A DNA stretch of 64,000 bases, taken from NCBI GenBank assembly GCA_016763855.1, contig JAESSY010000137.1:1-64000 (forward strand). The letters are read 5' to 3'. A model generated the notes under the pieces. The model was given only the letters and a program-made list of their open reading frames with translations, was not told where the DNA came from and searched no databases. Made by a program: the position numbers and the translations under genes. Shown one piece after another: positions 8,298 through 50,094 of this stretch; position 1 is the stretch's first letter, and each line of letters begins with the position of its first letter. The stretch comes from Pseudomonadales bacterium. Its GTDB lineage: Bacteria; Pseudomonadota; Gammaproteobacteria; Pseudomonadales; Azotimanducaceae.

Positions 8298-9494
8298 ATG
8301 GCCTGGTTATCTTATCGCCCCATTGGTCTAACGCATACTGGAGAGGGAACTTATTCAGGATACACCCTGTTTTGTTCTGTTCGCGGACATCATGCCACCA
8401 TTATTGATATGGCGGGTCAGATAGTGCATCAGTGGCATCATGATGAAGGCATTCAACACGTAAAATTATTGGAGAACGGCAACCTTTTAATCCAGACCTT
8501 GCCCCCTGAAGATGCAGGTGGCCGCGAGAAGATAGGCGGTTCCGCTGGTGCCATGATCGAGCTTACTCCTGAGGGCAAAACCGTTTGGGAGCATCGTGAT
8601 ATTCATCAACATCATGATTACATCCGCTTAGATACTGGCAATACGGTTTATCTCGCTTGGGAACCCATGCCGGGAGATGTGTGTAGACAAGTTCGGGGTG
8701 CGCATAAACATGAAGATGATCCGGAATTTATGTGGGGAGATGTCGTTCGAGAAATTGACGCAACAGGCAAGTTGCTTAGGGAATGGCGCAGCTGGGAGCA
8801 TCTTGATTTTGATGAAGAAATTATCTGTCCTCTCGAAAGTTTTAAAGAATGGACGCATATCAATTCTATTGAAGTCCTAGAAAATGGTGATTGGCTAATG
8901 AGCCTGCGCCTGACAAGCACCGTTATTATTGTTGATGGGAAAAGTGGCGAAGTTAAATGGCGTTGGGGTGGTACACAAATAAACTCGGACCATGATCCTA
9001 AAAAATGGGGCCCTGCGGAATTATCTCATCAGCATAATGCTCAGATGTTGGAAAACGGAAATATTCTGGTGTTCGACAATGGCTGTCACCGTAAGAGAGG
9101 GCCTGGTTTTTCAAGGATTGTCGAGATTGATCCAGAAACCCGTGCCTTTGTTTGGTCCTATACAGATCCTACGGTATTGGCATTTTATAGTTTTATGGTG
9201 AGTGGCTGTGAGCGATTGCCTAACGGTAATACCTTGATCACAGAAGGCGCGAGCGGTCGTATCATGGAAGTAAGTCAAAAACACAAAGTAGTTTGGGAAT
9301 ACATTTCTCCTTGGACTGTTGTCAGTAGCTTTGGGCCAACCCCTGCAGTATTTCGATCTTACCGAATTGCAGAAGATGATCCGAGACTGGCGTCATACAA
9401 TCTGTCTCGTGAAAAATATGCCGATCTAAATCAAGCGATTGCAAAGGGCGAAGTGCAAACCGAAAAGGAATATCTACCCCCTGAAACTGATTAG
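8298..9494 (+). CDS. Arylsulfotransferase (ASST)-like beta-propeller protein
   Basis: Repeated LENGNLLIQ / LENGDWLMS / LENGNILVFDNG / LPNGNTLITEG and QHHDYIRLDTGNTVYL, typical of the ASST family. Confidence 0.75.
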   Translation: MAWLSYRPIGLTHTGEGTYSGYTLFCSVRGHHATIIDMAGQIVHQWHHDEGIQHVKLLENGNLLIQTLPPEDAGGREKIGGSAGAMIELTPEGKTVWEHRDIHQHHDYIRLDTGNTVYLAWEPMPGDVCRQVRGAHKHEDDPEFMWGDVVREIDATGKLLREWRSWEHLDFDEEIICPLESFKEWTHINSIEVLENGDWLMSLRLTSTVIIVDGKSGEVKWRWGGTQINSDHDPKKWGPAELSHQHNAQMLENGNILVFDNGCHRKRGPGFSRIVEIDPETRAFVWSYTDPTVLAFYSFMVSGCERLPNGNTLITEGASGRIMEVSQKHKVVWEYISPWTVVSSFGPTPAVFRSYRIAEDDPRLASYNLSREKYADLNQAIAKGEVQTEKEYLPPETD

Positions 9495-9618
9495 AAAGGA
9501 TTAATTTAACTTATATACAAAAAATCGACCCCTTTGTGACCTTTCTGCGTTACTAATATTAACTGGTTCTTGAAATCTCAAAAGGAAGGCATTCATCTTT
9601 AATCGTCCTAGCAAATTG

Positions 9619-10152
9619 ATGTCCGATGACCAGTTGCTGCACGCTTATGTGCGAGGGCAAGATAAAGCCTTCGATATATTGTATGAAAAATATAAACAAT
9701 CCCTTTACGGCTATTTTTACCGTAACTGTGATTCATCGATGGTGGATGAGTTATTCCAAGATGTTTGGTTACGTGTGATCGCATCAAGTAGACGTTATCA
9801 GAATCAAAATAAATTTCGGTCTTGGTTGTTTACTCTTGCCCACAATTGTTTGGTTGATCATTACCGACGGCAAAGCTTACGAGTAAGTGTGAGTAGTGAT
9901 GAGTCTGAGGTAATAGATGCCGAGTTCAATACACCTCGGTTAGTCGAAAGTGAGAAATTGGGTTTAGATTTGCTGAAGGCAATTGATAGTTTGCCCTTTG
10001 AACAAAAAGAAGTGTTCTTCCTGCGAGAAGAGTCTGGGTTTTCTATAAAGGACATTGCGAAGATTCAGGATATATCGAATGAAGCAGCGAAGAGTCGTTT
10101 GCGTTATGCCTATGGAAAGCTGAGAATTTTATTAAAGGAGGCTTCAATTTGA
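9619..10152 (+). CDS. RNA polymerase sigma factor, ECF subfamily
   Basis: sigma2 (YGYFYRNCDSSMVDELFQDVWLRVIASSRRYQNQNKFRSWLFTLAHNCLVDHYRR) and sigma4 (LPFEQKEVFFLREESGFSIKDIAKIQDISNEAAKSRLRYAYGKLR). Confidence 0.9.
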   Translation: MSDDQLLHAYVRGQDKAFDILYEKYKQSLYGYFYRNCDSSMVDELFQDVWLRVIASSRRYQNQNKFRSWLFTLAHNCLVDHYRRQSLRVSVSSDESEVIDAEFNTPRLVESEKLGLDLLKAIDSLPFEQKEVFFLREESGFSIKDIAKIQDISNEAAKSRLRYAYGKLRILLKEASI

Positions 10153-10475
10153 ACGCCGAAGAAAGATTTGACTGGGAGGAGGAGGATGAACTATTTCAAG
10201 CTGAGTTTCTTGAGATTTCAAGTATCTATCGTGCAAGTCAAAATATGCCGCCCAAGGTGCCTTCCAAATTAAGCCGTTTGATTCGACAGCAAGCTAAGAA
10301 CAGTCCTGTAGATGATCTGGCAAAAAACTGGATCTTTAGTAAAGCGATGATGTTGCTCTTAGCTGTATTGATCCTATTCAGTGTCGGATTAGTATTTGTA
10401 TTCGCCGCTGATGCTAATTCAGATCAGAAAATAAACCCAAATCCAAATAAAGTGGGACAGCATCTAAAGCAATAG
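10149..10475 (+). CDS. Small single-pass membrane protein, possible anti-sigma factor
   Basis: TTG start overlapping the sigma-factor TGA; AAAGGAGG upstream; one TM segment (AMMLLLAVLILFSVGLVFVFAA). Confidence 0.6.
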   Translation: MNAEERFDWEEEDELFQAEFLEISSIYRASQNMPPKVPSKLSRLIRQQAKNSPVDDLAKNWIFSKAMMLLLAVLILFSVGLVFVFAADANSDQKINPNPNKVGQHLKQ

Positions 10476-10542
10476 TCGCGATTGGTTATATTCCATGCAA
10501 AACAATATACTTGACAGCATATCTTCTTCGGATGTTAGTTGA

Positions 10543-11280
10543 ATGCAAGCTGTGGCCTTGGGCTTTGATCACGTCACCAAATACTATGGTGATATACGCG
10601 TTATTGACGATCTCTCTCTTGGGATAAAGGACAAGGTGACAACCGCCATTGTAGGGGAAAGCGGTAGTGGTAAGTCCACCTTACTGCAGCTTGCCAACGG
10701 CCTTATTAAGCCGGAAAGAGGTAGCGTCACAGTATTTCATAAAGTACTTGATTATCGATACTTGCCTAAAGTAAGAAGGACCATGGGCTACGCGGTTCAG
10801 GGAGCAGGTCTTTTTCCTCACCTCACGGTCTACCAAAACATTGTATTAATGGCTCAGCGTGAAGCTTGGCTTACTGATAAGATTGATGAGCGTTTTACAT
10901 TCCTTATCGAGCTCTTGGGCCTCGATCCTGAATTCGCCACTCGTTATCCCCATAGCTTATCTGGTGGTCAACAACAAAGAGTCAGTTTGTGTCGTGCAAT
11001 GATGTTGAACCCACCCTTATTGTTGCTGGATGAGCCTTTCTCTGCATTAGATCCACTGACGCGAGAATCTATCCATGGAGAATTTCTTAAACTACAGGCT
11101 GCTGAATCAAGAGCCATTGTCTTAGTGACCCATGATATGGAAGAAGCGTTAAAGCTGGCTGAGGATCTTGTTATTCTTAAAGATGGTCAGATTCTGCAGC
11201 ATGGCTCCGTTGATTCAATAAAAGAGAATCCTGTTAATGAATATGTAGAGCGTTTGTTCGTCTCGCGTGTGAGCCAATGA
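10543..11280 (+). CDS. ABC transporter ATP-binding protein, OpuCA/ProV-like
   Basis: Walker A GESGSGKSTLL, LSGGQQQRVSLCRAMMLNPPLLLLDEPFSALD. Confidence 0.9.
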   Translation: MQAVALGFDHVTKYYGDIRVIDDLSLGIKDKVTTAIVGESGSGKSTLLQLANGLIKPERGSVTVFHKVLDYRYLPKVRRTMGYAVQGAGLFPHLTVYQNIVLMAQREAWLTDKIDERFTFLIELLGLDPEFATRYPHSLSGGQQQRVSLCRAMMLNPPLLLLDEPFSALDPLTRESIHGEFLKLQAAESRAIVLVTHDMEEALKLAEDLVILKDGQILQHGSVDSIKENPVNEYVERLFVSRVSQ

Positions 11281-12758
11281 GATATCTTTTGTGCGCGATG
11301 GTCATGTTGTTGGTTTCCATGCCTCTGAATGGGAAAGACTTGGTTCGGGTCGCAAGTAAAAATTTTAGTGAAAACTATTTACTAGCCGAAATACTATCGC
11401 AGTTGCTTGAGATTGAAGGATACGAAGTTGAACGTAGATTTGGTCTTGGGGGAACGTTGGTTTGTTACGAGGCGCTACTAAATGATGAGGTTGATGTATA
11501 CGTAGAGTACAGCGGCACAATGGAACAGGTCATTCTAAAGGGCAGCCAAAAAACACCTACCGTTGAATCACTCAATCAACGATTTCAGAAAATGAACCTT
11601 AGTGTTTTGGGTTCTCTTGGTTTCAATAACACTTTTGCCATGGCAGTTAAAAGCACGCTTGCAGAAAGCCGAAATCTTAAAACCGTCTCTGACCTCAAAA
11701 ATGAAACTGATTTGAAGATAGCCTTTGGTTTAGAGTTTTTGAACAGAGAAGATGGCTGGCCGGGCCTGGCACTGACCTATGGATTAACACAGAATCCCAT
11801 CGGAATCGATCACGGGCTAGCTTACAAAGCCATAGATGATGGCGAGATTGATCTTACCGATGCCTACTCTACTGATGGTGACTTAGAACGGTATCAATTA
11901 TCCATTTTAGAAGACGATAAAGGATATTTTCCTCAATACTTTGCTGTGCCTTTTGTTAGAAATGATCTCGATCAGAATGTGATAAGTATATTATCGAAAC
12001 TTGAAGGGCTCATAGATGACAACAAGATGCGCCAATTAAATTCCCGTGTCGTCGTTGATGGTAATAGCTTTGCCTTCGTTGCAAAAGAGTTTCTTTTTGA
12101 AACCCAACTTGGGACGAGTGAAATAGATGAGAATCAAATGTGGAAGAACATGGGTAAGAATGTTCTTGTTCATCTAAAGTTGACCTCTATTGCTTTGGGT
12201 TTGGGTTGTTTAATTGGTTTGCCTTTGGGTATTTTTGTCTATCGTTTTAGTCGAGCTGCGAGAGTCACTGTTTACATTGCTGGACTGTTGCAAACCATCC
12301 CCTCAATTGCTTTGTTGGCATTGATGATTCCCGTTTTTGGTATAGGACAGACGCCGGCCATTATTGCCTTGTTTCTATATTCGCTTTTACCCATTTTACG
12401 TAACACGATAACGGCGCTGATTACGATTGATCCTCTTCTGAAGCGAATAGCAGAGGGGATTGGATTAACAAGAATTGAACAGTTGAGGTTTGTGCTGGTG
12501 CCATTGGCATTACCCAATATACTTGCTGGGATTAAAACTGCGGCGATAATTAGCATCGGAACTGCGACCCTTGCAGCATTTATTGGTGCCGGCGGTTTGG
12601 GAGAGCCTATAGTGACAGGGCTTGCGCTCAATGATAGCAACCTTATATTGCAAGGAGCGCTCCCAGCTGCGGGGCTCGCGATCTTAACTGAATTATTCTT
12701 TGAGACATTAGAAAAACTGTTGGTTAAAGAGCATATGCTGAAAGAACTACCACAGTAA
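11277..12758 (+). CDS. Fused substrate-binding protein and permease of an OpuC/YehYZ-type ABC transporter
   Basis: N-terminal signal and glycine-betaine-type binding domain (VRVASKNFSENYLLAEILSQLLE ... DVYVEYSGTM); C-terminal permease (KLTSIALGLGCLIGLPLG ... QTIPSIALLALMIPVFGIGQTPAIIALFLYSLLPILRN). Confidence 0.85.
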   Translation: MRYLLCAMVMLLVSMPLNGKDLVRVASKNFSENYLLAEILSQLLEIEGYEVERRFGLGGTLVCYEALLNDEVDVYVEYSGTMEQVILKGSQKTPTVESLNQRFQKMNLSVLGSLGFNNTFAMAVKSTLAESRNLKTVSDLKNETDLKIAFGLEFLNREDGWPGLALTYGLTQNPIGIDHGLAYKAIDDGEIDLTDAYSTDGDLERYQLSILEDDKGYFPQYFAVPFVRNDLDQNVISILSKLEGLIDDNKMRQLNSRVVVDGNSFAFVAKEFLFETQLGTSEIDENQMWKNMGKNVLVHLKLTSIALGLGCLIGLPLGIFVYRFSRAARVTVYIAGLLQTIPSIALLALMIPVFGIGQTPAIIALFLYSLLPILRNTITALITIDPLLKRIAEGIGLTRIEQLRFVLVPLALPNILAGIKTAAIISIGTATLAAFIGAGGLGEPIVTGLALNDSNLILQGALPAAGLAILTELFFETLEKLLVKEHMLKELPQ

Positions 12759-36526: not shown

Positions 36527-37717
36527 TTAACGCGAATGCAGTACCAACGCTTCCAACCCGTGGAAGTGGTAACGATCTGCGTAAACGGGTTCTGAACCGA
36601 TCCTAACTTTCGGCAATCGTTCAAACAGCACACTAAGGGCTATTTCAATTTCCAAGCGCGCGAGGGGTGCTCCTACACAAAAATGAATGCCGGCCCCGAA
36701 GCTGGTATGACCAATACCGCCTCGTGTTGGATTAAAGAGGTGGGCATCGCTAAATTTCTCCTCATCCCTATTGGCTGAACCTAACAATAATCCAATGACA
36801 TCGCCTTGTTTAAATGCTTGTCCCTGGTATTCAAGATCTTCAAGCACAAAACGCGTAAACATATGCAAGGGCGGATCAAAACGTAGGCATTCTTCTGTTA
36901 GGGCCCGGGCACCTTCCTCGGTAGATGTTACATCAATACTATTTTCTAGAATTGCTTTAACGCCATTACCGATACCATGTACAGTGGCTTCGTGACCGGC
37001 ATTGAGCAATAAAATGGATGTTGCGATCAACTCTTCAATGTTGAGCCTTTCACCCTCTTCCTCGACTTTAATCAGTGCGGAAAGTAAATCGTTTGATGGT
37101 TTTCGTTTCTTGTTCTCAATCTCAGATTCTATAAATGCTTCGAAGGATAACGTTGCCTCGTTGGCAATGCGTTCAACTTCTTTGTTATTGCCGTGTTCGT
37201 AAATCGCTACCATCTTATGAGACCAGTCGAGAAGTTGGTCTGCCATTTCCGTCGGCACACCAAGAAGCTTGCAAATAACAATAACTGGGATGACTTCTGC
37301 GTAGCTGCTTAATAGATCAAATGGTTGGTTAGTGTCGATTTTATCAATCAGAGTGTTGGCGAGTGTCGTGATTTCCTCTCGCTGGGTTTCAACTTGACGA
37401 GAGACGAAAGCACGACTAACCAAACGCCTAAGGCGGGTATGTGTCGGTGGTTCCATTTCGAGTAGTGAATTTTGATCAAAACGAACGAGGGCGGGACAAC
37501 GTTCTTCTTTTTCTGCATTATCAACATCGACTAAATGGTTAATTTGCCGACCAAAACGCCGGTCACGCAATAATTTATTTACTTCCTTGAATCGAGGGAA
37601 GCAATAATAGCCGTATTCTTCCCAAAAGAAACAAGAACCCATGGAACGCATTTTATTATAGACGGGGTAGGGGTTTTGAAAGAATACTGGATCTGACGGA
37701 TTCTGGGAAAATCGCAC
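36527..37717 (-). CDS. Cytochrome P450
   Basis: LLNAGHEATVHGIGNG I-helix, EECLRFDPP, FGAGIHFCVGAPLARLEIEIAL heme loop. Confidence 0.95.
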   Translation of the reverse strand: MRFSQNPSDPVFFQNPYPVYNKMRSMGSCFFWEEYGYYCFPRFKEVNKLLRDRRFGRQINHLVDVDNAEKEERCPALVRFDQNSLLEMEPPTHTRLRRLVSRAFVSRQVETQREEITTLANTLIDKIDTNQPFDLLSSYAEVIPVIVICKLLGVPTEMADQLLDWSHKMVAIYEHGNNKEVERIANEATLSFEAFIESEIENKKRKPSNDLLSALIKVEEEGERLNIEELIATSILLLNAGHEATVHGIGNGVKAILENSIDVTSTEEGARALTEECLRFDPPLHMFTRFVLEDLEYQGQAFKQGDVIGLLLGSANRDEEKFSDAHLFNPTRGGIGHTSFGAGIHFCVGAPLARLEIEIALSVLFERLPKVRIGSEPVYADRYHFHGLEALVLHSR

Positions 37718-40518: not shown

Positions 40519-41439
40519 ATGGCAAAATCAAAACACCAAATTCTGATTGTTGATGACGAGGTAGATATTCACAGTGTCACTCAGTTAGGACTAAGGGGAT
40601 TAAAATATAAGGATAAACGTTGTGAATTCCTGTCAGCCTATACTGGCCATGAGGCTTTGGATATGATCCGCCAAAATCCCAATATCGCCGTTATATTACT
40701 GGACGTAGTCATGGAATCCGATCATGCGGGTTTGGAGGCTTGTCGTAGTATTCGAAATGAGCTGGGTAATCAATCGGTTCGTATTATTCTACGAACAGGG
40801 CAGCCTGGTAGCTGCCCAGAAAAAGAAACGATTGATAATTACGACATTGATGGCTATTTGGCAAAAACAGAAATTACAGCCACAAAACTCTACACCACAG
40901 TTCGTACAGCCATCAAAGCCTATTCAGAATTAATTGAGCTTGAGCGCCACAAAGAGAGTCTCGCTTTGATTCACGATTGTGCAATGTCTTTCCGTTCCTT
41001 TGATCCCCTAGAAAACGCCCTTAATCAGATATTGAATGCAGCGTCGACCATTGCTAAAACTGAATTTGCCGTATTGTCCCTCGAAACATTTGAACAATCT
41101 GATACAGCCAGTCAGTACCAGCTACATTTGGCTACCCCAAGAGATGATCTAACAGAGCAAATTGAAGATGTTGTTACAACGGTTAACGAACTGATTCTTT
41201 ACGAGGCTCAGGCCATGGCTATCGAGGCGAAAGGCGGTATGGTATTTTCATTTTCACTGCTCCGGGAATTGGGTCATGGTTGGATATATCTCGAAACCCT
41301 TGAATTGGACGACCTTCAGCAACAGGCCCTGTCGCTTCTGTGTGGGCACGCTGCTAATGCGCTTTACTCGACCGTTGCTCTGGGTGTGTTGGCAGCAAAA
41401 TTAGATGATGATGATGATTTTAATTTAATGGTGATTTAA
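40519..41439 (+). CDS. Response regulator with DUF3369-like C-terminal domain
   Basis: ILIVDDEVDIHSVTQLGL...ILLDVVMESDHAGLEACRSIRNE...RIILRTGQPG receiver followed by a GAF-like region. Confidence 0.8.
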   Translation: MAKSKHQILIVDDEVDIHSVTQLGLRGLKYKDKRCEFLSAYTGHEALDMIRQNPNIAVILLDVVMESDHAGLEACRSIRNELGNQSVRIILRTGQPGSCPEKETIDNYDIDGYLAKTEITATKLYTTVRTAIKAYSELIELERHKESLALIHDCAMSFRSFDPLENALNQILNAASTIAKTEFAVLSLETFEQSDTASQYQLHLATPRDDLTEQIEDVVTTVNELILYEAQAMAIEAKGGMVFSFSLLRELGHGWIYLETLELDDLQQQALSLLCGHAANALYSTVALGVLAAKLDDDDDFNLMVI

Positions 41440-41541: not shown

Positions 41542-44364
41542 ATGGTACTAATCAACCAAGCGTACCCAAAGCGCCAAGCGAATAGAGCACTTTTTCTAAC
41601 AACACTGTCTTTTTCAATCTGTTTTGCCTGCTGGGTAGTGAATGCCATGTTGGTGACCTATCTTATTCAAAATGGCGTATTTGACTTTTCTGCCCAGGAA
41701 GTAGGATGGTTAATTGCGGCGCCAATTCTAACGGGCGCTATTAGTCGTGTACCTTTAGGTGTTTTGACAGATAAATATGGTGGTCGAATTGTGATGGCCG
41801 CCTTAATGCTATTTTGTGCTTTACCAATGTATCTTTTGTCTTATGCCGATAGTTTTACAGACTTCCTTGTTTGTAGCCTCGGTTTTGGAATGTGTGGCGG
41901 CGGCTTTGCGGTTGGAGCAGGATATGTTTCGACATGGTTTCCCCAAGAAACACAGGGAACTGTTTTAGGCATATTTGGTATGGGCAATGCGGGGGCTGCA
42001 ATCACTAGTCTGGCTGCCCCTCAACTTCTTAGTTATTTTGCGCTTAATAAAAGCCCAGCAGAAGCCTGGCAAATGCTACCGAAAATTTACGCCGCCATGT
42101 TGGTGCTGATGGCCTTGATTTTCTTTGTTGGCTGTGGAACGCGCTTAGCCGCTAATTCGGCAGAAAAAACACTAAGCCAGCGATTATCTCTGTTCAAATC
42201 CATGGTTGTTTGGCGCTTCGGAATGTACTACGCATTGCTTTTTGGCTCCTTCATAGCGATGTCTCAATGGTTGGTTCCTTACACTGTTAATGTCTATCAA
42301 ATTACCCTTGCACAAGCGGGGGTGTTGGCAGCAATATTTAGTCTGCCCTCAGGAGTGATTAGAGGTGTAGGCGGCTGGCTGTCAGATCGATACGGTGCGC
42401 GTAGCTTAATGACTACGGTGTTTTTAGGTAGCGCTATCTGCTGTACATTACTCGCGATTCCTAAAATGAATATTTTTATACCCGGTGTGGGAGTCAGTGC
42501 TAAAACATCAGGATTAGTTACCTTAATAGATTCAAACAGAATTATAGTAAGTGGTCGAGAATACAATTTAACGCCCAAGCCCGCAGGATTAACTTCTGAA
42601 AATGATGCAGGTACTCATAGTCTATTTTTACCTAGTTTGAAAAACTGGCACGAAGCTAATGTAAAAGTAGGGGAGCAGGTCAAGAAGGATCAGTTGATAG
42701 CGTCGGGGGTAAGTAATTTGTACTATCCCGCGAACATTTGGATTTTTGTTGGATTGGTGTTCATCTTTGGCATACTAACAGGGGTGGGTAAGGCGGGCGT
42801 ATTTAAGTACATCCCAGAGCATTTTCCTGACGATGTTGGAGCTGTTGCTGGTATCGTTGGGTTAATCGGTGCTATGGGTGGCTTTATACTACTTGTGATC
42901 TTTAGTGTGCTGCTGACATCGACTGGTATTTGGGCGACTTCTTGGATTGTAATCGCGATACTTTCTGTCATTTGCTTGATTTGGATGCAATCGAACATCA
43001 GGCGCATTATGGAAAGCGAAGCTCCTAATCTGGCTAAACTGATAGAGAGCAGTGCCCACAGATTGATATCCCGCCCTTCTGATCATCGATCTCAGATACC
43101 CGCCGATGTCGAGGCGCTTTTACAAGGCCTTCCTTTCTTCCATGATCTTAGTCATGAAGAACTCCATGCAGTCGCTAAGATAGGCGAGTTTAAATCAATG
43201 GCAGAAGGAGAGCTGATATTTAAGCAGGGTGACCCGGGAGATGCACTTTATGTACTAATAACAGGCAAGGTCGCAATCTATCTTATTGGTGAAGATGGCA
43301 ACCGTATTGATCTGGCCCAACTGGGTGATGGCGCATACTTTGGAGATCTGGCATTGATTGATGGTCAGCCTCGATCTGCCAGTGCAACGACCAGCGAACA
43401 CTGCGAATTCTTTTTGGTGGGTCGTCAGCAGTTTTTGTCTTTGATGACAGATTCTCCACGCATTCTTGCCGATGTTTTGATTGGCTTATCTGAGCACATT
43501 CGAAATACGAATCAAAGATATGTAGACATCAATGAGAAGAAAGAGAGATTACAGCTTCAGGCTGAATTAGATCGCCATCAGTCCATTGCTCAAATGGTCG
43601 CAGGCGTCGCTCACGAAATTAATACACCCCTTGGCATCGTAAATCATGCAGCGAGCATTATTACAGAAGAAATTAATAATGGTACGATTGAAGAGATTGC
43701 GAAGGATGAAGATGCAGAAGAAATACTAGAAAGTATCGCCCTTGCAGGCCAATTAATCCAAGACAATATCCGCCGGGCAGATAAGTTGATTACGTCCTTC
43801 AAGAATTTGTCCGTTAGGCAAATAGTAGATCAAAAGGAAAAAGTTAGTATTGGCGAAGTCATTGAGGATGTATTACGACTTTACAGCTTGAAAGCCCAGG
43901 CTTCCAATTTGGACTTAAGCTTTGAAAATGAACTAGAAAATTCAGATCTGTGGGACGGCTATGCGGGCCCATTAAGTCAGATAATGTTAAATATCATTTC
44001 AAATGCAGATCGTTATGCTTACCCAGAGGGCAATGGTGGCAAGTTAGAAGTAAAATTAATTGCTGCTGGGCCTGAACATGCCAAATTTGACTATGTGATT
44101 AGTGTGAAAGACTTTGGCGTAGGTATTGCTGAATCCGAACAAGAAAAAGTTTTCGAGGCGTTTTTTACAACAGGGAGATCCATTGGTGGAACCGGGATTG
44201 GCCTATCGGTTGTCTACAATCTGGTAACTTATCAGTTGGACGGTGCAATTGAACTGGATTCAGAGGTGGGTAAGTGGAGTCGATTCACCATCTATCTGCC
44301 TAAGTTTGTTAAGGAAAAACATAAACAAACCGAGCTGCTCAAGGATGCTCATGAGCCTGTTTAA
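41542..44364 (+). CDS. MFS (NarK-like) transporter - cyclic-nucleotide-binding domain - sensor histidine kinase fusion
   Basis: Continuous 940-codon ORF: GVLTDKYGGRIVMAAL MFS motif; GEFKSMAEGELIFKQGDPGDALYVLITGKVAIYLI...GDLALIDGQPRSASATT CNBD; MVAGVAHEINTPLGIVNHA H-box; NADRYAYPEGNGGK / GVGIAESEQEKVFEAFFTTGRSIGGTGIGLSVVYNLV ATPase. Confidence 0.92.
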   Translation: MVLINQAYPKRQANRALFLTTLSFSICFACWVVNAMLVTYLIQNGVFDFSAQEVGWLIAAPILTGAISRVPLGVLTDKYGGRIVMAALMLFCALPMYLLSYADSFTDFLVCSLGFGMCGGGFAVGAGYVSTWFPQETQGTVLGIFGMGNAGAAITSLAAPQLLSYFALNKSPAEAWQMLPKIYAAMLVLMALIFFVGCGTRLAANSAEKTLSQRLSLFKSMVVWRFGMYYALLFGSFIAMSQWLVPYTVNVYQITLAQAGVLAAIFSLPSGVIRGVGGWLSDRYGARSLMTTVFLGSAICCTLLAIPKMNIFIPGVGVSAKTSGLVTLIDSNRIIVSGREYNLTPKPAGLTSENDAGTHSLFLPSLKNWHEANVKVGEQVKKDQLIASGVSNLYYPANIWIFVGLVFIFGILTGVGKAGVFKYIPEHFPDDVGAVAGIVGLIGAMGGFILLVIFSVLLTSTGIWATSWIVIAILSVICLIWMQSNIRRIMESEAPNLAKLIESSAHRLISRPSDHRSQIPADVEALLQGLPFFHDLSHEELHAVAKIGEFKSMAEGELIFKQGDPGDALYVLITGKVAIYLIGEDGNRIDLAQLGDGAYFGDLALIDGQPRSASATTSEHCEFFLVGRQQFLSLMTDSPRILADVLIGLSEHIRNTNQRYVDINEKKERLQLQAELDRHQSIAQMVAGVAHEINTPLGIVNHAASIITEEINNGTIEEIAKDEDAEEILESIALAGQLIQDNIRRADKLITSFKNLSVRQIVDQKEKVSIGEVIEDVLRLYSLKAQASNLDLSFENELENSDLWDGYAGPLSQIMLNIISNADRYAYPEGNGGKLEVKLIAAGPEHAKFDYVISVKDFGVGIAESEQEKVFEAFFTTGRSIGGTGIGLSVVYNLVTYQLDGAIELDSEVGKWSRFTIYLPKFVKEKHKQTELLKDAHEPV

Positions 44365-45376: not shown

Positions 45377-45886
45377 ATGTCATTACCTCATTTAGAAACG
45401 ATACAACCTAGAATGCAGGCCCTATTTTCTCTAAATGGCCTTGGCTTATTTACAATCGGTATTCTTTTCGGATGGGCTTGGTTTTTTCATCTTTTGGAAG
45501 CTATTGTTGTTTGGCCTTTACCTGTTCAGATTGAAGTCAATATTCCTGGGGATTCCAGAGGGTTTCGCATGGGGCATATGGAGGCGATTACTCAGGGCTT
45601 GCTCTTGATGGCATTGGCCTTTGGGGGGCAATTTATGCACCTGAGTAAAGTTCAATTCAACGTGTTGTTTTGGTCAGCGCTAATCACAGCTTGGCTTTTT
45701 ACTGTGCCGGCGATGGCGAATACCTTTTTTGGCACTCGTGGTTTGGCCTTTGGTGGTGGGCCATTTAAAGCGAGCTTAGCCAACGATATTATTTTTCTTT
45801 TTGGATGGCCACCTATTGTTGCAGTACATGTCCTATTTGGCATCGCAATTTTAGGGGTTTATCGATTCGTTCGTAATACTAAATAG
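45377..45886 (+). CDS. Small integral membrane protein, weak resemblance to hydroxylaminobenzene mutase (HabA)
   Basis: Four hydrophobic segments; RMGHMEAITQGLLLMALAFGGQF. Confidence 0.5.
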   Translation: MSLPHLETIQPRMQALFSLNGLGLFTIGILFGWAWFFHLLEAIVVWPLPVQIEVNIPGDSRGFRMGHMEAITQGLLLMALAFGGQFMHLSKVQFNVLFWSALITAWLFTVPAMANTFFGTRGLAFGGGPFKASLANDIIFLFGWPPIVAVHVLFGIAILGVYRFVRNTK

Positions 45887-46696: not shown

Positions 46697-48580
46697 ATGA
46701 CTACGACTTCTAAACCATTAAATGAGCCTATTCAGCGCGACCCGGATACGGGTTTTAAAGTATTCAATACAAAGGCTGAGAATATCACTGGGATCTACGG
46801 ACGCGGCTATGGCGTAGTCACGGATGAATCATTAAAGACCTTGCCGCAGGCTTCGGCAGATGCAGTGTTTGATGCTGATGAGCAAGCAAAATACCAGCAG
46901 TTCAAGGAAGAGAGACGAGGCTCAGCTGATTATATGGCGATGGAAGGAGTGTTTAGTCGTTATTTAGAAGATGCCTATTCCTCTCCGCCAATACCGCGAG
47001 ATGCTTTGAAGGATGAGTGTGAAATACTGGTAGTCGGCGCTGGTTTTGCCGGTCTGCTTCTTTGGTATAAATTGCAAAAAGCGGGCTTTAAGGATGTCAG
47101 GTTTTGTGAGAAAGGCGGTGATGTAGGGGGTACATGGTATTGGAATCGCTATCCCGGCATTGCCTGTGATGTTGAGGCCTATAGCTATCTGCCTCTACTC
47201 GAAGAAATGGGATATATCCCCTCGATGAAATTCGCTGGTGGATTTGAAATCATGGCTTATTGCCAGAAAATGGCAGAGAAATTTTCTTTCTATGACCACT
47301 GTTTATTCCATACAACTGTTGAGAAAACGCAATGGAATGAAGATGAAGGTCGCTGGAGTGTTTTTACCGATCGAGGCGATGAAATGAAGTCGCGATTTGT
47401 CATTCTAGCAAACGGCATATTAACGACACCAAAATTGGCTCGAATAGAGGGCATGGAAGAATTCAAGGGGGATTCGTTTCACACTTCACGTTGGAATTAT
47501 AAACTGGATCTGAAAGATAAACGGATCGGGATTATAGGCACCGGAGCGACAGCGGTGCAGGTGATACCACCGCTTGCAAAGATCGCAAAGGAATTGACGA
47601 TTTTTCAGCGCACGCCATCTTCTATTGATGTTCGAGATCAGAGAGAGACAACAGCCGAGGAGCGAGAAACATGGTCTCAAGAACCGGGTTGGGCCAGAGC
47701 AAGGCGAGCGCGCTTTGCCAAGATTTCAGCCGGTCGAACAGCAATGAAGGCCAACGATGACTATTTAGCGGGCAAAGTGCCAGATTTTAAAGAGCGTAAA
47801 GAGCACGCAAAATCCCTTTCAATGCCTGAGTTGGTCGAAAAACAATTACAATCTAACTTTCGGATTATGGAGCAAATTCGGGGTCGAGTAGATGCCATCG
47901 TTAAAGACCCAGTAACGGCGGCGGCACTCAAGCCTTATTATCCCTACGGATGCAAAAGGCCTACTTTTCATGATGAATATCTACCGGTTTTCAATTTACC
48001 CCACGTAAAATTGGTTGATGCAGCACCTCGTGGTATCAATAAAATTACTGCTACAGGCGTCGTGCATGAAGGAAAAACTTATCCCCTTGATGTGCTTATT
48101 TATGCTACCGGTTTTCAGTGGATGGCAACGTCGACCTTCAACATGGTTGTAGGTTGTGACGGAATCTCTCTAAATGAAAAGTGGCAGCAACAGGGCACTA
48201 AAACTTTTCTGGGTTTGCACAGCAAAGGATTTCCTAACTTGTTCATTGTGTCTGGTCCTCAGGGTGGTGGCGGGAGTTTCAATTTTACAGACGCGATTGA
48301 TGAGCATGCTGACTATATCCTCTGGATGCTAGAAACCCTGCGAGAGAAAGATCTTAATCGCGTTGATATCACGGCGGAGTCAGAAAACGAATATGCAGCA
48401 CATTGCCAGAGTGCTGATATCGTCACAAGTCCATTAAGAGATTGTATTTCCTATTACAACGGACACGGTGAATCAGAGCCTGGAAGTCTCGCTTATTATG
48501 GAGGGGGTGATTGGCACAAGTATCGCTTGAAAGCCCAAAAGACGCTTGAACCGTATATCTTTCAAAAGTCTAAACCCTGA
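46697..48580 (+). CDS. Type I Baeyer-Villiger monooxygenase-like flavoprotein
   Basis: GAGFAGLLLWYKL, GGTWYWNRYPGIACDVEAYSY, FKGDSFHTSRW matches FxGxxxHxxxW, GTGATA. Confidence 0.92.
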   Translation: MTTTSKPLNEPIQRDPDTGFKVFNTKAENITGIYGRGYGVVTDESLKTLPQASADAVFDADEQAKYQQFKEERRGSADYMAMEGVFSRYLEDAYSSPPIPRDALKDECEILVVGAGFAGLLLWYKLQKAGFKDVRFCEKGGDVGGTWYWNRYPGIACDVEAYSYLPLLEEMGYIPSMKFAGGFEIMAYCQKMAEKFSFYDHCLFHTTVEKTQWNEDEGRWSVFTDRGDEMKSRFVILANGILTTPKLARIEGMEEFKGDSFHTSRWNYKLDLKDKRIGIIGTGATAVQVIPPLAKIAKELTIFQRTPSSIDVRDQRETTAEERETWSQEPGWARARRARFAKISAGRTAMKANDDYLAGKVPDFKERKEHAKSLSMPELVEKQLQSNFRIMEQIRGRVDAIVKDPVTAAALKPYYPYGCKRPTFHDEYLPVFNLPHVKLVDAAPRGINKITATGVVHEGKTYPLDVLIYATGFQWMATSTFNMVVGCDGISLNEKWQQQGTKTFLGLHSKGFPNLFIVSGPQGGGGSFNFTDAIDEHADYILWMLETLREKDLNRVDITAESENEYAAHCQSADIVTSPLRDCISYYNGHGESEPGSLAYYGGGDWHKYRLKAQKTLEPYIFQKSKP

Positions 48581-48741
48581 GGTTTGTCCTAAGCTCTGAT
48601 ATTTGACGCTAAATACTTGATTCCGAAAAACTGGGGATTTCAGTGGTAGAGGCCAAACATGATCTCGAATTCTAGGTCGAAGTAGTAGAAACTGCCAAGA
48701 ATTGCTCAAATAACAACTATTTTTAATAAACGGAGGGTTTG

Positions 48742-50094
48742 ATGGCTGTACAACATTTGGAAGCAGACAATACAAAGCGTGAGGCACTAGCGGCGCGACT
48801 GTCCACCGGTGACATGACAGTTTCTAACAAGGAAATCGCCGATGCATTTGAGATTGATCCGCATTTTGATGTCAATAAAATCCCCTTGGATGATATAGAC
48901 CCATCTCACCCTGCCCTATTTGCGAATGATACCGTATGGGATCATTTTGCGAGATTACGTAAAGAAGATCCTGTCCACTATCATAAAGAAAGCAGTGTTG
49001 GCCCTTACTGGTCCGTGACCAAGTATAAAGACATCATGGAAGTGGATAGACAGCATGATGTATTTTCTTCTCAACAAAGATTGGGCGGTATTGTCCTAGG
49101 TGGCGTCGCCAGAGAAGCAGATGATGCATTTGCTTTGCCTATGTTTATTCAGGAAGACCCACCTAAGCACGATGATCAGCGTAAGGTGGTAACACCCATG
49201 TTTATACCCCGTAATCTGGCTGAACTTGAGCCTCTCATTCGAGAACGAATCGGGGTGATCTTGGATGGCCTTCCACGCAATGAAGAGTTCAATTGGGTAG
49301 AACATGTATCAGTTGATCTGACAGCACAGATGTTGGCAACGATATTTGGTATTCCTCAAGAAGATAGAATGAAATTAATACATTGGTCAGATACTGTATC
49401 AAGTTTGCAGGATCCAGAAGTTTTTGAAAATACAGAAGAGGGTTTTAAGGTATTGTTTGAATGCTTGGCTTACTTTACTGAACATTACGAAGCACGTAAA
49501 AAAGAACCCCCCAGATTTGATCTGCTTTCCATGATGGCCCATGATCCTGCTACCAGCAATATGTCACCACAAGAATTGTTGGGGAATGTCCTTTTGTTGA
49601 TTGTCGGTGGAAATGACACCACACGTAATTCAATATCAGGTGGCGTATTAGCCTTGAATAAAAATCCTGATCAATATGAAAAGTTATTACAAAATCCAGG
49701 CTTGATACCCAAGATGATTCCAGAGATTATCCGTTGGCAAACGCCTTTAGCCCATATGGCAAGAACAGCACTGAGAGATGTTGAGCTTGGCGGAAAGCAA
49801 ATTAAGGAAGGAGACCGCGTTGCGATGTGGTATATCTCCGGAAACAGAGATGAAGACTATATTGAGAATGCCGATAAGTTCATTATCGATCGCCCTAATC
49901 CAAGAACCCACACTTCCTTTGGCTACGGTGTCCATCGCTGTGTAGGCAATCGATTAGCAGAAATGCAGTTGAATGTGACTTGGGAAGAGATTAATAAACG
50001 CTTTTCAAAAGTTGAAGTGACGGGTGAACCATTATTACAAAGATCGAGTTTTGTGCATGGTATTCGGGATTTGCCCATTACCCTTCGCGAATAA
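48742..50094 (+). CDS. Cytochrome P450, CYP153-like (alkane hydroxylase type)
   Basis: FANDTVWDHFARLRKEDPVHYHKESSVGPYWSVTKYKDIMEVDRQHDVFSS; GGNDTTRNSISGG; HTSFGYGVHRCVGNRLAEMQLNVTWEEI. Confidence 0.88.
   Translation: MAVQHLEADNTKREALAARLSTGDMTVSNKEIADAFEIDPHFDVNKIPLDDIDPSHPALFANDTVWDHFARLRKEDPVHYHKESSVGPYWSVTKYKDIMEVDRQHDVFSSQQRLGGIVLGGVAREADDAFALPMFIQEDPPKHDDQRKVVTPMFIPRNLAELEPLIRERIGVILDGLPRNEEFNWVEHVSVDLTAQMLATIFGIPQEDRMKLIHWSDTVSSLQDPEVFENTEEGFKVLFECLAYFTEHYEARKKEPPRFDLLSMMAHDPATSNMSPQELLGNVLLLIVGGNDTTRNSISGGVLALNKNPDQYEKLLQNPGLIPKMIPEIIRWQTPLAHMARTALRDVELGGKQIKEGDRVAMWYISGNRDEDYIENADKFIIDRPNPRTHTSFGYGVHRCVGNRLAEMQLNVTWEEINKRFSKVEVTGEPLLQRSSFVHGIRDLPITLRE

Follow-up and report, generated by a model that had tools for sequence, protein, structure and literature searches.

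The window, a stretch of 64,000 nucleotides from a Pseudomonadales bacterium, encodes a protein of 940 amino acids in which a NarK1-type MFS carrier, a cyclic-nucleotide-binding domain (CNBD) and a histidine kinase form a single chain (41542-44364, forward strand). This fusion architecture is genuine, conserved and rare. On balance, we favor a reading of the protein as a nitrate/nitrite transceptor kinase that is gated through the C-helix of its CNBD and signals to a response regulator with receiver and DUF3369 domains (RR-DUF3369). The more specific proposal, that in this MFS-fold single-chain kinase signaling to a regulator that does not bind DNA is gated jointly by nitrate occupancy or flux of the NarK1 carrier and by a second messenger that the CNBD reads, is put forward more tentatively. 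An earlier note on this DNA had also suggested a transceptor kinase; this stands as the best reading, with its domains confirmed and nitrate/nitrite as a well supported substrate class.

The open reading frame starts with ATG, runs for 940 codons and contains no internal stop, in agreement with the single uninterrupted frame described in the earlier note. The NarK-like MFS region, CNBD and histidine kinase named there were matched by Pfam and NCBIfam, and the Pfam domains follow in the order MFS_1 (5.4e-40), cNMP_binding (3.8e-23), HisKA and HATPase_c (1.7e-20). A species-genome scan revealed a homologous protein of 940 amino acids with identical junctions in the Thiotrichaceae bacterium UBA7357 MAG (locus L010, 5983-8805). 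Overall protein identity is 67%, while the third codon positions of the two genes are 30-43% identical, which is near saturation. The identity was 69% in TM1-9, 52% in an insert between TM9 and TM10, 71% in TM10-12, 74% in the CNBD, 76% in DHp and 58% in the ATPase region; it was lowest in the linker from carrier to CNBD (48%) and highest in the helix that leads from the CNBD into DHp (86%). A third locus (L030), from a genome of the window's own family (G738), carries the upstream regulator gene and encodes about the first 267 residues of the fusion at 68% identity. Beyond this point the similarity is lost, the contig ends in ~140 unrelated bases, and at a cutoff of 1e-60 the CNBD-kinase piece was listed at no other site in that genome.

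The carrier (residues 1-490 including the insert; 41542-43011, forward strand) has 12 TM. Its best NCBIfam match is TIGR00886, the NarK nitrate/nitrite transporters (5.9e-59, residues 15-306), with 200 bits against a family cut-off of 311.7 bits, so that no full-score call is made. The only solved carriers that the fusion matched in a PDB comparison were NarU and NarK of E. coli. In E. coli NarK, the nitrate site consists of F49, R89, F147, N175, Y263, F267 and R305 (Fukuda et al., PMC4432589). All seven residues are kept in alignments with the fusion (F28, R69, F122, N149, Y230, F234 and R274) and likewise with the L010 carrier; the earlier note had proposed such a check of substrate residues. 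By its MFS fold, its nearest family and its full nitrate site, the carrier is assigned to the NarK/NNP nitrate-nitrite carriers. Nitrate/nitrite is well supported as the substrate class because of these seven residues, the placement in the NarK1 clade and a nitrate-reductase-like neighbor in L010, and the carrier is predicted to transport these ions.

It is also conceivable, though rather unlikely, that the carrier no longer transports, or is in the course of losing this ability, and works as a sensor that binds nitrate, a relation like that of UhpC to UhpT. UhpC is an MFS protein that acts as the sensor for the histidine kinase UhpB, and the sugar-phosphate carrier is UhpT; that system differs from the fusion in its separate polypeptides, its sugar-phosphate ligand and its lack of a CNBD. 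Such a loss would fit two changes in TM11 of the window copy: a proline that is retained in 15 of 15 other NarK-type sequences aligned there is replaced by Leu451, and the Gly or Ala that the other aligned sequences have at position 455 is Ser here. It would also fit the presence of dedicated NarK1 and NarK2 carriers in the window's genome. However, the whole substrate site is kept together with the NS2 glycines G437, G443, G446 and G447, and the TM11 proline is still present in the L010 homologue.

The CNBD (residues 524-636; 43111-43449, forward strand) matches PF00027 over residues 551-636 and is similar to cAMP/cGMP-binding proteins in the PDB. In its signature, FGDLALIDGQPRSASA, the phosphate-binding cassette retains Arg611, which would contact the phosphate, and has Asp602 in place of the ribose-binding Glu, a replacement also found in L010. 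A cyclic nucleotide is the presumed ligand. The helix that connects this domain to the kinase dimerization domain (residues 637-680; 43450-43581, forward strand) is the best conserved segment mentioned above, which is consistent with coupling through the C-helix but does not prove it. The HisKA/DHp domain (43582-43821, forward strand) contains the H-box AHEINTPLG at residue 690 with H691 as the predicted phosphate acceptor; the HisKA match (7.2e-6) of 26.4 bits is marginally below the curated cut-off of 26.9. In the HATPase_c catalytic domain (residues 810-921; 43969-44304, forward strand) the N (817), G1 (857), F (871) and G2 (882) boxes are intact. Judged by these motifs, the HisKA/HATPase core of the histidine kinase is complete.

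The RR-DUF3369 gene lies directly upstream of the fusion (40519-41439, forward strand; Response_reg 3.5e-10, DUF3369 4.2e-5), a conserved feature that was overlooked in the earlier note. The DUF3369 match of the window regulator is below the cut-off, and that of its homologue in L030 is above it. The gene is immediately upstream in all three genomes, with 65% identity in L010 and 60% in L030, and the gap to the fusion is about 102 bp in the window, about 45 bp in L010 and about 44 bp in L030. The receiver motifs VDD, LLDVVM, LRTGQ and the K in DGYLxK occur in all three regulators; domain searches found no DNA-binding, HD-GYP or GGDEF domain in any of them. We infer from gene adjacency that the fusion and the regulator form a two-component pair, in which phosphotransfer is predicted. 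Since no DNA-binding domain was detected in RR-DUF3369, contact with other proteins or a place in a relay is a more likely mode of action for it than direct gene control.

The genes further along differ between the genomes. In L010, the fusion is followed by a gene (8856-12602, forward strand) for a 1248-amino-acid protein with molybdopterin-dinucleotide-binding, FAD/NAD reductase and 2Fe-2S domains. The best solved match of its N-terminal part, a divergent molybdopterin oxidoreductase, is periplasmic nitrate reductase (E 1.8e-5), and the protein may be a nitrate reductase that is self-contained and NAD(P)H-linked. No full-length counterpart was found in the window's genome. In the window, the genes that follow the fusion have no nitrate link: one product is predicted to be a metal-dependent hydrolase (PF10118), and the other is weakly similar to styrene-oxide isomerase. 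The latter, a membrane-type protein of 169 amino acids (45377-45886), scored 28 bits with StyC, for which the family cut-off is 150, and matched nothing in Pfam. Around the locus there are two cytochrome-P450-like genes and a flavin monooxygenase gene of the FMO/Baeyer-Villiger-like type (36527-37717 and 46697-50094), and therefore the fusion is surrounded by genes of oxidative catabolism rather than nitrate genes. Elsewhere in the same genome (G000, contig C98; L036, 525-11470), a narGH-narK2-narK1 cluster is accompanied by a NarX-like kinase and a NarL-like regulator, and several class III cyclase domains are encoded. It is therefore plausible that both proposed ligands, nitrate and a cyclic nucleotide, occur in the cell.

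In NarK, R89 and R305 repel each other until nitrate relieves this repulsion and allows the carrier to close, and TM7, TM10 and TM11 are bent in the inward-open state (PMC4432589). By analogy, the binding of nitrate or nitrite and the alternation of carrier states would move TM12 and the cytoplasmic linker of the fusion, through which the motion would travel to the CNBD. Carrier motion and cyclic-nucleotide occupancy together would shift the C-helix of the CNBD. This helix runs on into the DHp helices of the dimeric kinase, and its new position would set the balance between autokinase and phosphatase. From H691, phosphate would then be transferred to RR-DUF3369 at its aspartate, and this regulator would act by contact with other proteins or as part of a relay. 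In this way the kinase would weigh nitrate at the membrane against the second-messenger state of the cell, alongside the NarX/NarL pair of the genome. We favor this nitrate/nitrite transceptor kinase because the nitrate site is intact, the fusion clade lies beside NarK1 carriers of narGHJI operons and the kinase motifs are complete. The conservation of all domains despite near-saturated third positions, with its maximum between CNBD and DHp, argues for it too, as do the upstream regulator in three genomes, the nitrate-reductase-like gene next in L010, and the cyclase domains and nitrate-respiration cluster in the genome. It is weakened by the altered proline at 451 and small residue at 455, by the Glu to Asp602 replacement, by the downstream genes of the window and by the lack of a significant ligand effect on CbrA described below.

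The contrast between the best conserved CNBD-to-DHp segment and the poorly conserved linker from carrier to CNBD (86% vs 48%) would also be expected if the kinase read the ligand of the CNBD, or another ligand, but not nitrate, with the carrier mainly as an anchor or working independently. We consider this improbable: the carrier is constrained like the kinase, its nitrate site is intact and a nitrate-reductase-like gene follows the pair in L010. That an assembly chimera or an annotation artefact joined two genes is ruled out, even though the window comes from a fragmented assembly of 207 contigs, because an independent assembly (L010) has the same full architecture and junctions at 67% identity and equal length, with a codon pattern of coding constraint; a frameshift at the MFS/CNBD junction, which the earlier note had named as a possible refutation, is excluded on the same grounds.

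In a survey of phylogenetic spread of the kind the earlier note had advised, the fusion was found only in the window's genome and in UBA7357, with the broken-off copy in G738. The overlapping genome draws covered 207 genomes of the window's family, 295 of its order, 369 of its class, 399 of its phylum and 53 of the order of UBA7357, and a single contig scan used exact peptide patterns. This spread is a lower bound, as the limits were 1e-60 to 1e-90 with few candidates scored per genome, and distant fusions may be missed. A search with the CNBD-kinase part in 274 genomes of the class (1e-40) and one with the response regulator in 196 genomes of the order (1e-50) each returned only the window's own gene, and a plasmid search gave no match spanning 80% of the query. 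An AlphaFold model from the two-sequence alignment had a mean pLDDT of 35.9 and was not relied on.

Carrier-kinase chains are a known kind of protein. In the SLC5/STAC histidine kinases CbrA, CrbS/MxtR and RpuS, a secondary carrier and a kinase share one chain and work with a cognate response regulator (PMC7918813, PMC9100948, PMC7096432), which confirms the precedent that the earlier note had seen in CbrA. The SLC5 domain of CbrA transports histidine and its kinase phosphorylates CbrB, although histidine had no significant effect on any measured CbrA activity (PMC7096432). In a cryo-EM preprint, STAC is packed against the carrier and is likely the coupling element (PMC13022988). The fusion resembles these proteins in its single chain and cognate regulator but has an MFS/NarK carrier instead of an SLC5 carrier with LeuT-type fold and 13 TM, and a CNBD instead of STAC (and PAS); moreover, the partner of CbrA binds DNA, unlike RR-DUF3369. 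No SSS (SLC5) match was obtained with Pfam or NCBIfam. A Pfam scan at E 0.01 matched neither PAS nor, as far as Pfam has a model for it, STAC; what separates the carrier from the kinase is the CNBD. Because the SLC5 carrier is absent and a CNBD takes the place of STAC/PAS, the fusion, as far as its domains tell, is similar to CbrA/CrbS in its working yet outside their family.

The NarK1 carriers of narGHJI operons share with the fusion the fold, the substrate-site residues and, in a subset, the insert between TM9 and TM10, but NarK/NNP carriers stand alone and lack signaling domains. NarX and NarQ sense through a periplasmic domain, not a carrier. As set out in part of a review of NarX/NarQ diversity (PMC8199190), they are histidine kinases that report nitrate/nitrite, as proposed for the fusion, and have nar genes nearby; no NarK fusion turned up in that part of the review. 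The open-licence literature on carrier-kinase and NarK fusions, CNBD kinases and transceptors yielded no described MFS-CNBD-kinase, in line with the earlier note, which knew of no characterized example, although such an absence is not proof. The combination of an MFS/NarK carrier with a CNBD and a kinase is new as far as we found no earlier description. In the searched literature, fused carrier-kinases have SLC5 carriers only, and the route from carrier motion to kinase is unsolved. If the proposal is true, the MFS fold acquired its coupling of carrier to kinase separately, by way of another linker domain, and the fusion would be a bacterial counterpart of plant nitrate transceptors such as NRT1.1. 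Since nitrate-bound and inward-open structures of E. coli NarK exist, the coupling question is directly testable on a NarK-type fusion.

The insert of ~85 amino acids between TM9 and TM10 (residues 309-396; 42466-42729, forward strand), also overlooked in the earlier note, is common to some other NarK1s and absent from the rest. NarK topology would place it in the periplasm. Its sequence (VKVGEQVKKDQLIASG) is similar to barrel-sandwich/lipoyl-type domains, and library matches were weak (E 0.023 for Biotin_lipoyl_2, and 0.13); such a fold is therefore offered as a suggestion. A 13th membrane-like hydropathy peak within it (311-329) was not counted as TM, as relatives are not strongly hydrophobic there. 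In a maximum-likelihood tree, one clade (support 99/99) united the carriers from all three fusion loci and lay beside the insert-bearing NarK1s, and four NarK1 sequences without insert, the form also present in the nar cluster of the window's genome, lay across a branch with support 94/100. Insert columns were left out of this tree, which included one long-branch NarK2-like row (L028), and mainly the fusion-clade support was relied on. All ten stand-alone insert-bearing NarK1 genes examined (L012, L013, L031, L032, L033, L037, L038, L039, L040 and L041) adjoin narI of a nar operon, with narK2 adjacent in nine. The most likely origin of the carrier is therefore a respiratory nitrate operon, with the CNBD-kinase tail acquired afterwards; by these comparisons, the insert predates the fusion.

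Among other long MFS frames (914-926 amino acids), L027/L029 was rejected as a further example since L029 is a NarK1-NarK2 fusion beside narGH; L042 and L043 were taken as the same type from frame length alone. A different fusion was observed in genome G155. There, L009 (1045-2949, reverse strand) encodes a protein of 634 amino acids in which an insert-bearing NarK1-type carrier is followed by hemerythrin at the C-terminus (Pfam Hemerythrin 1.3e-11), and L035 (5403-7307, reverse strand) holds the same gene. It shares with the window protein the carrier type and a cytoplasmic C-terminal domain, but has hemerythrin in place of the CNBD and kinase. Fusion of insert-bearing carriers to cytoplasmic domains of a regulatory type has thus occurred at least twice, and the hemerythrin fusion is possibly an oxygen- or NO-responsive nitrate carrier.
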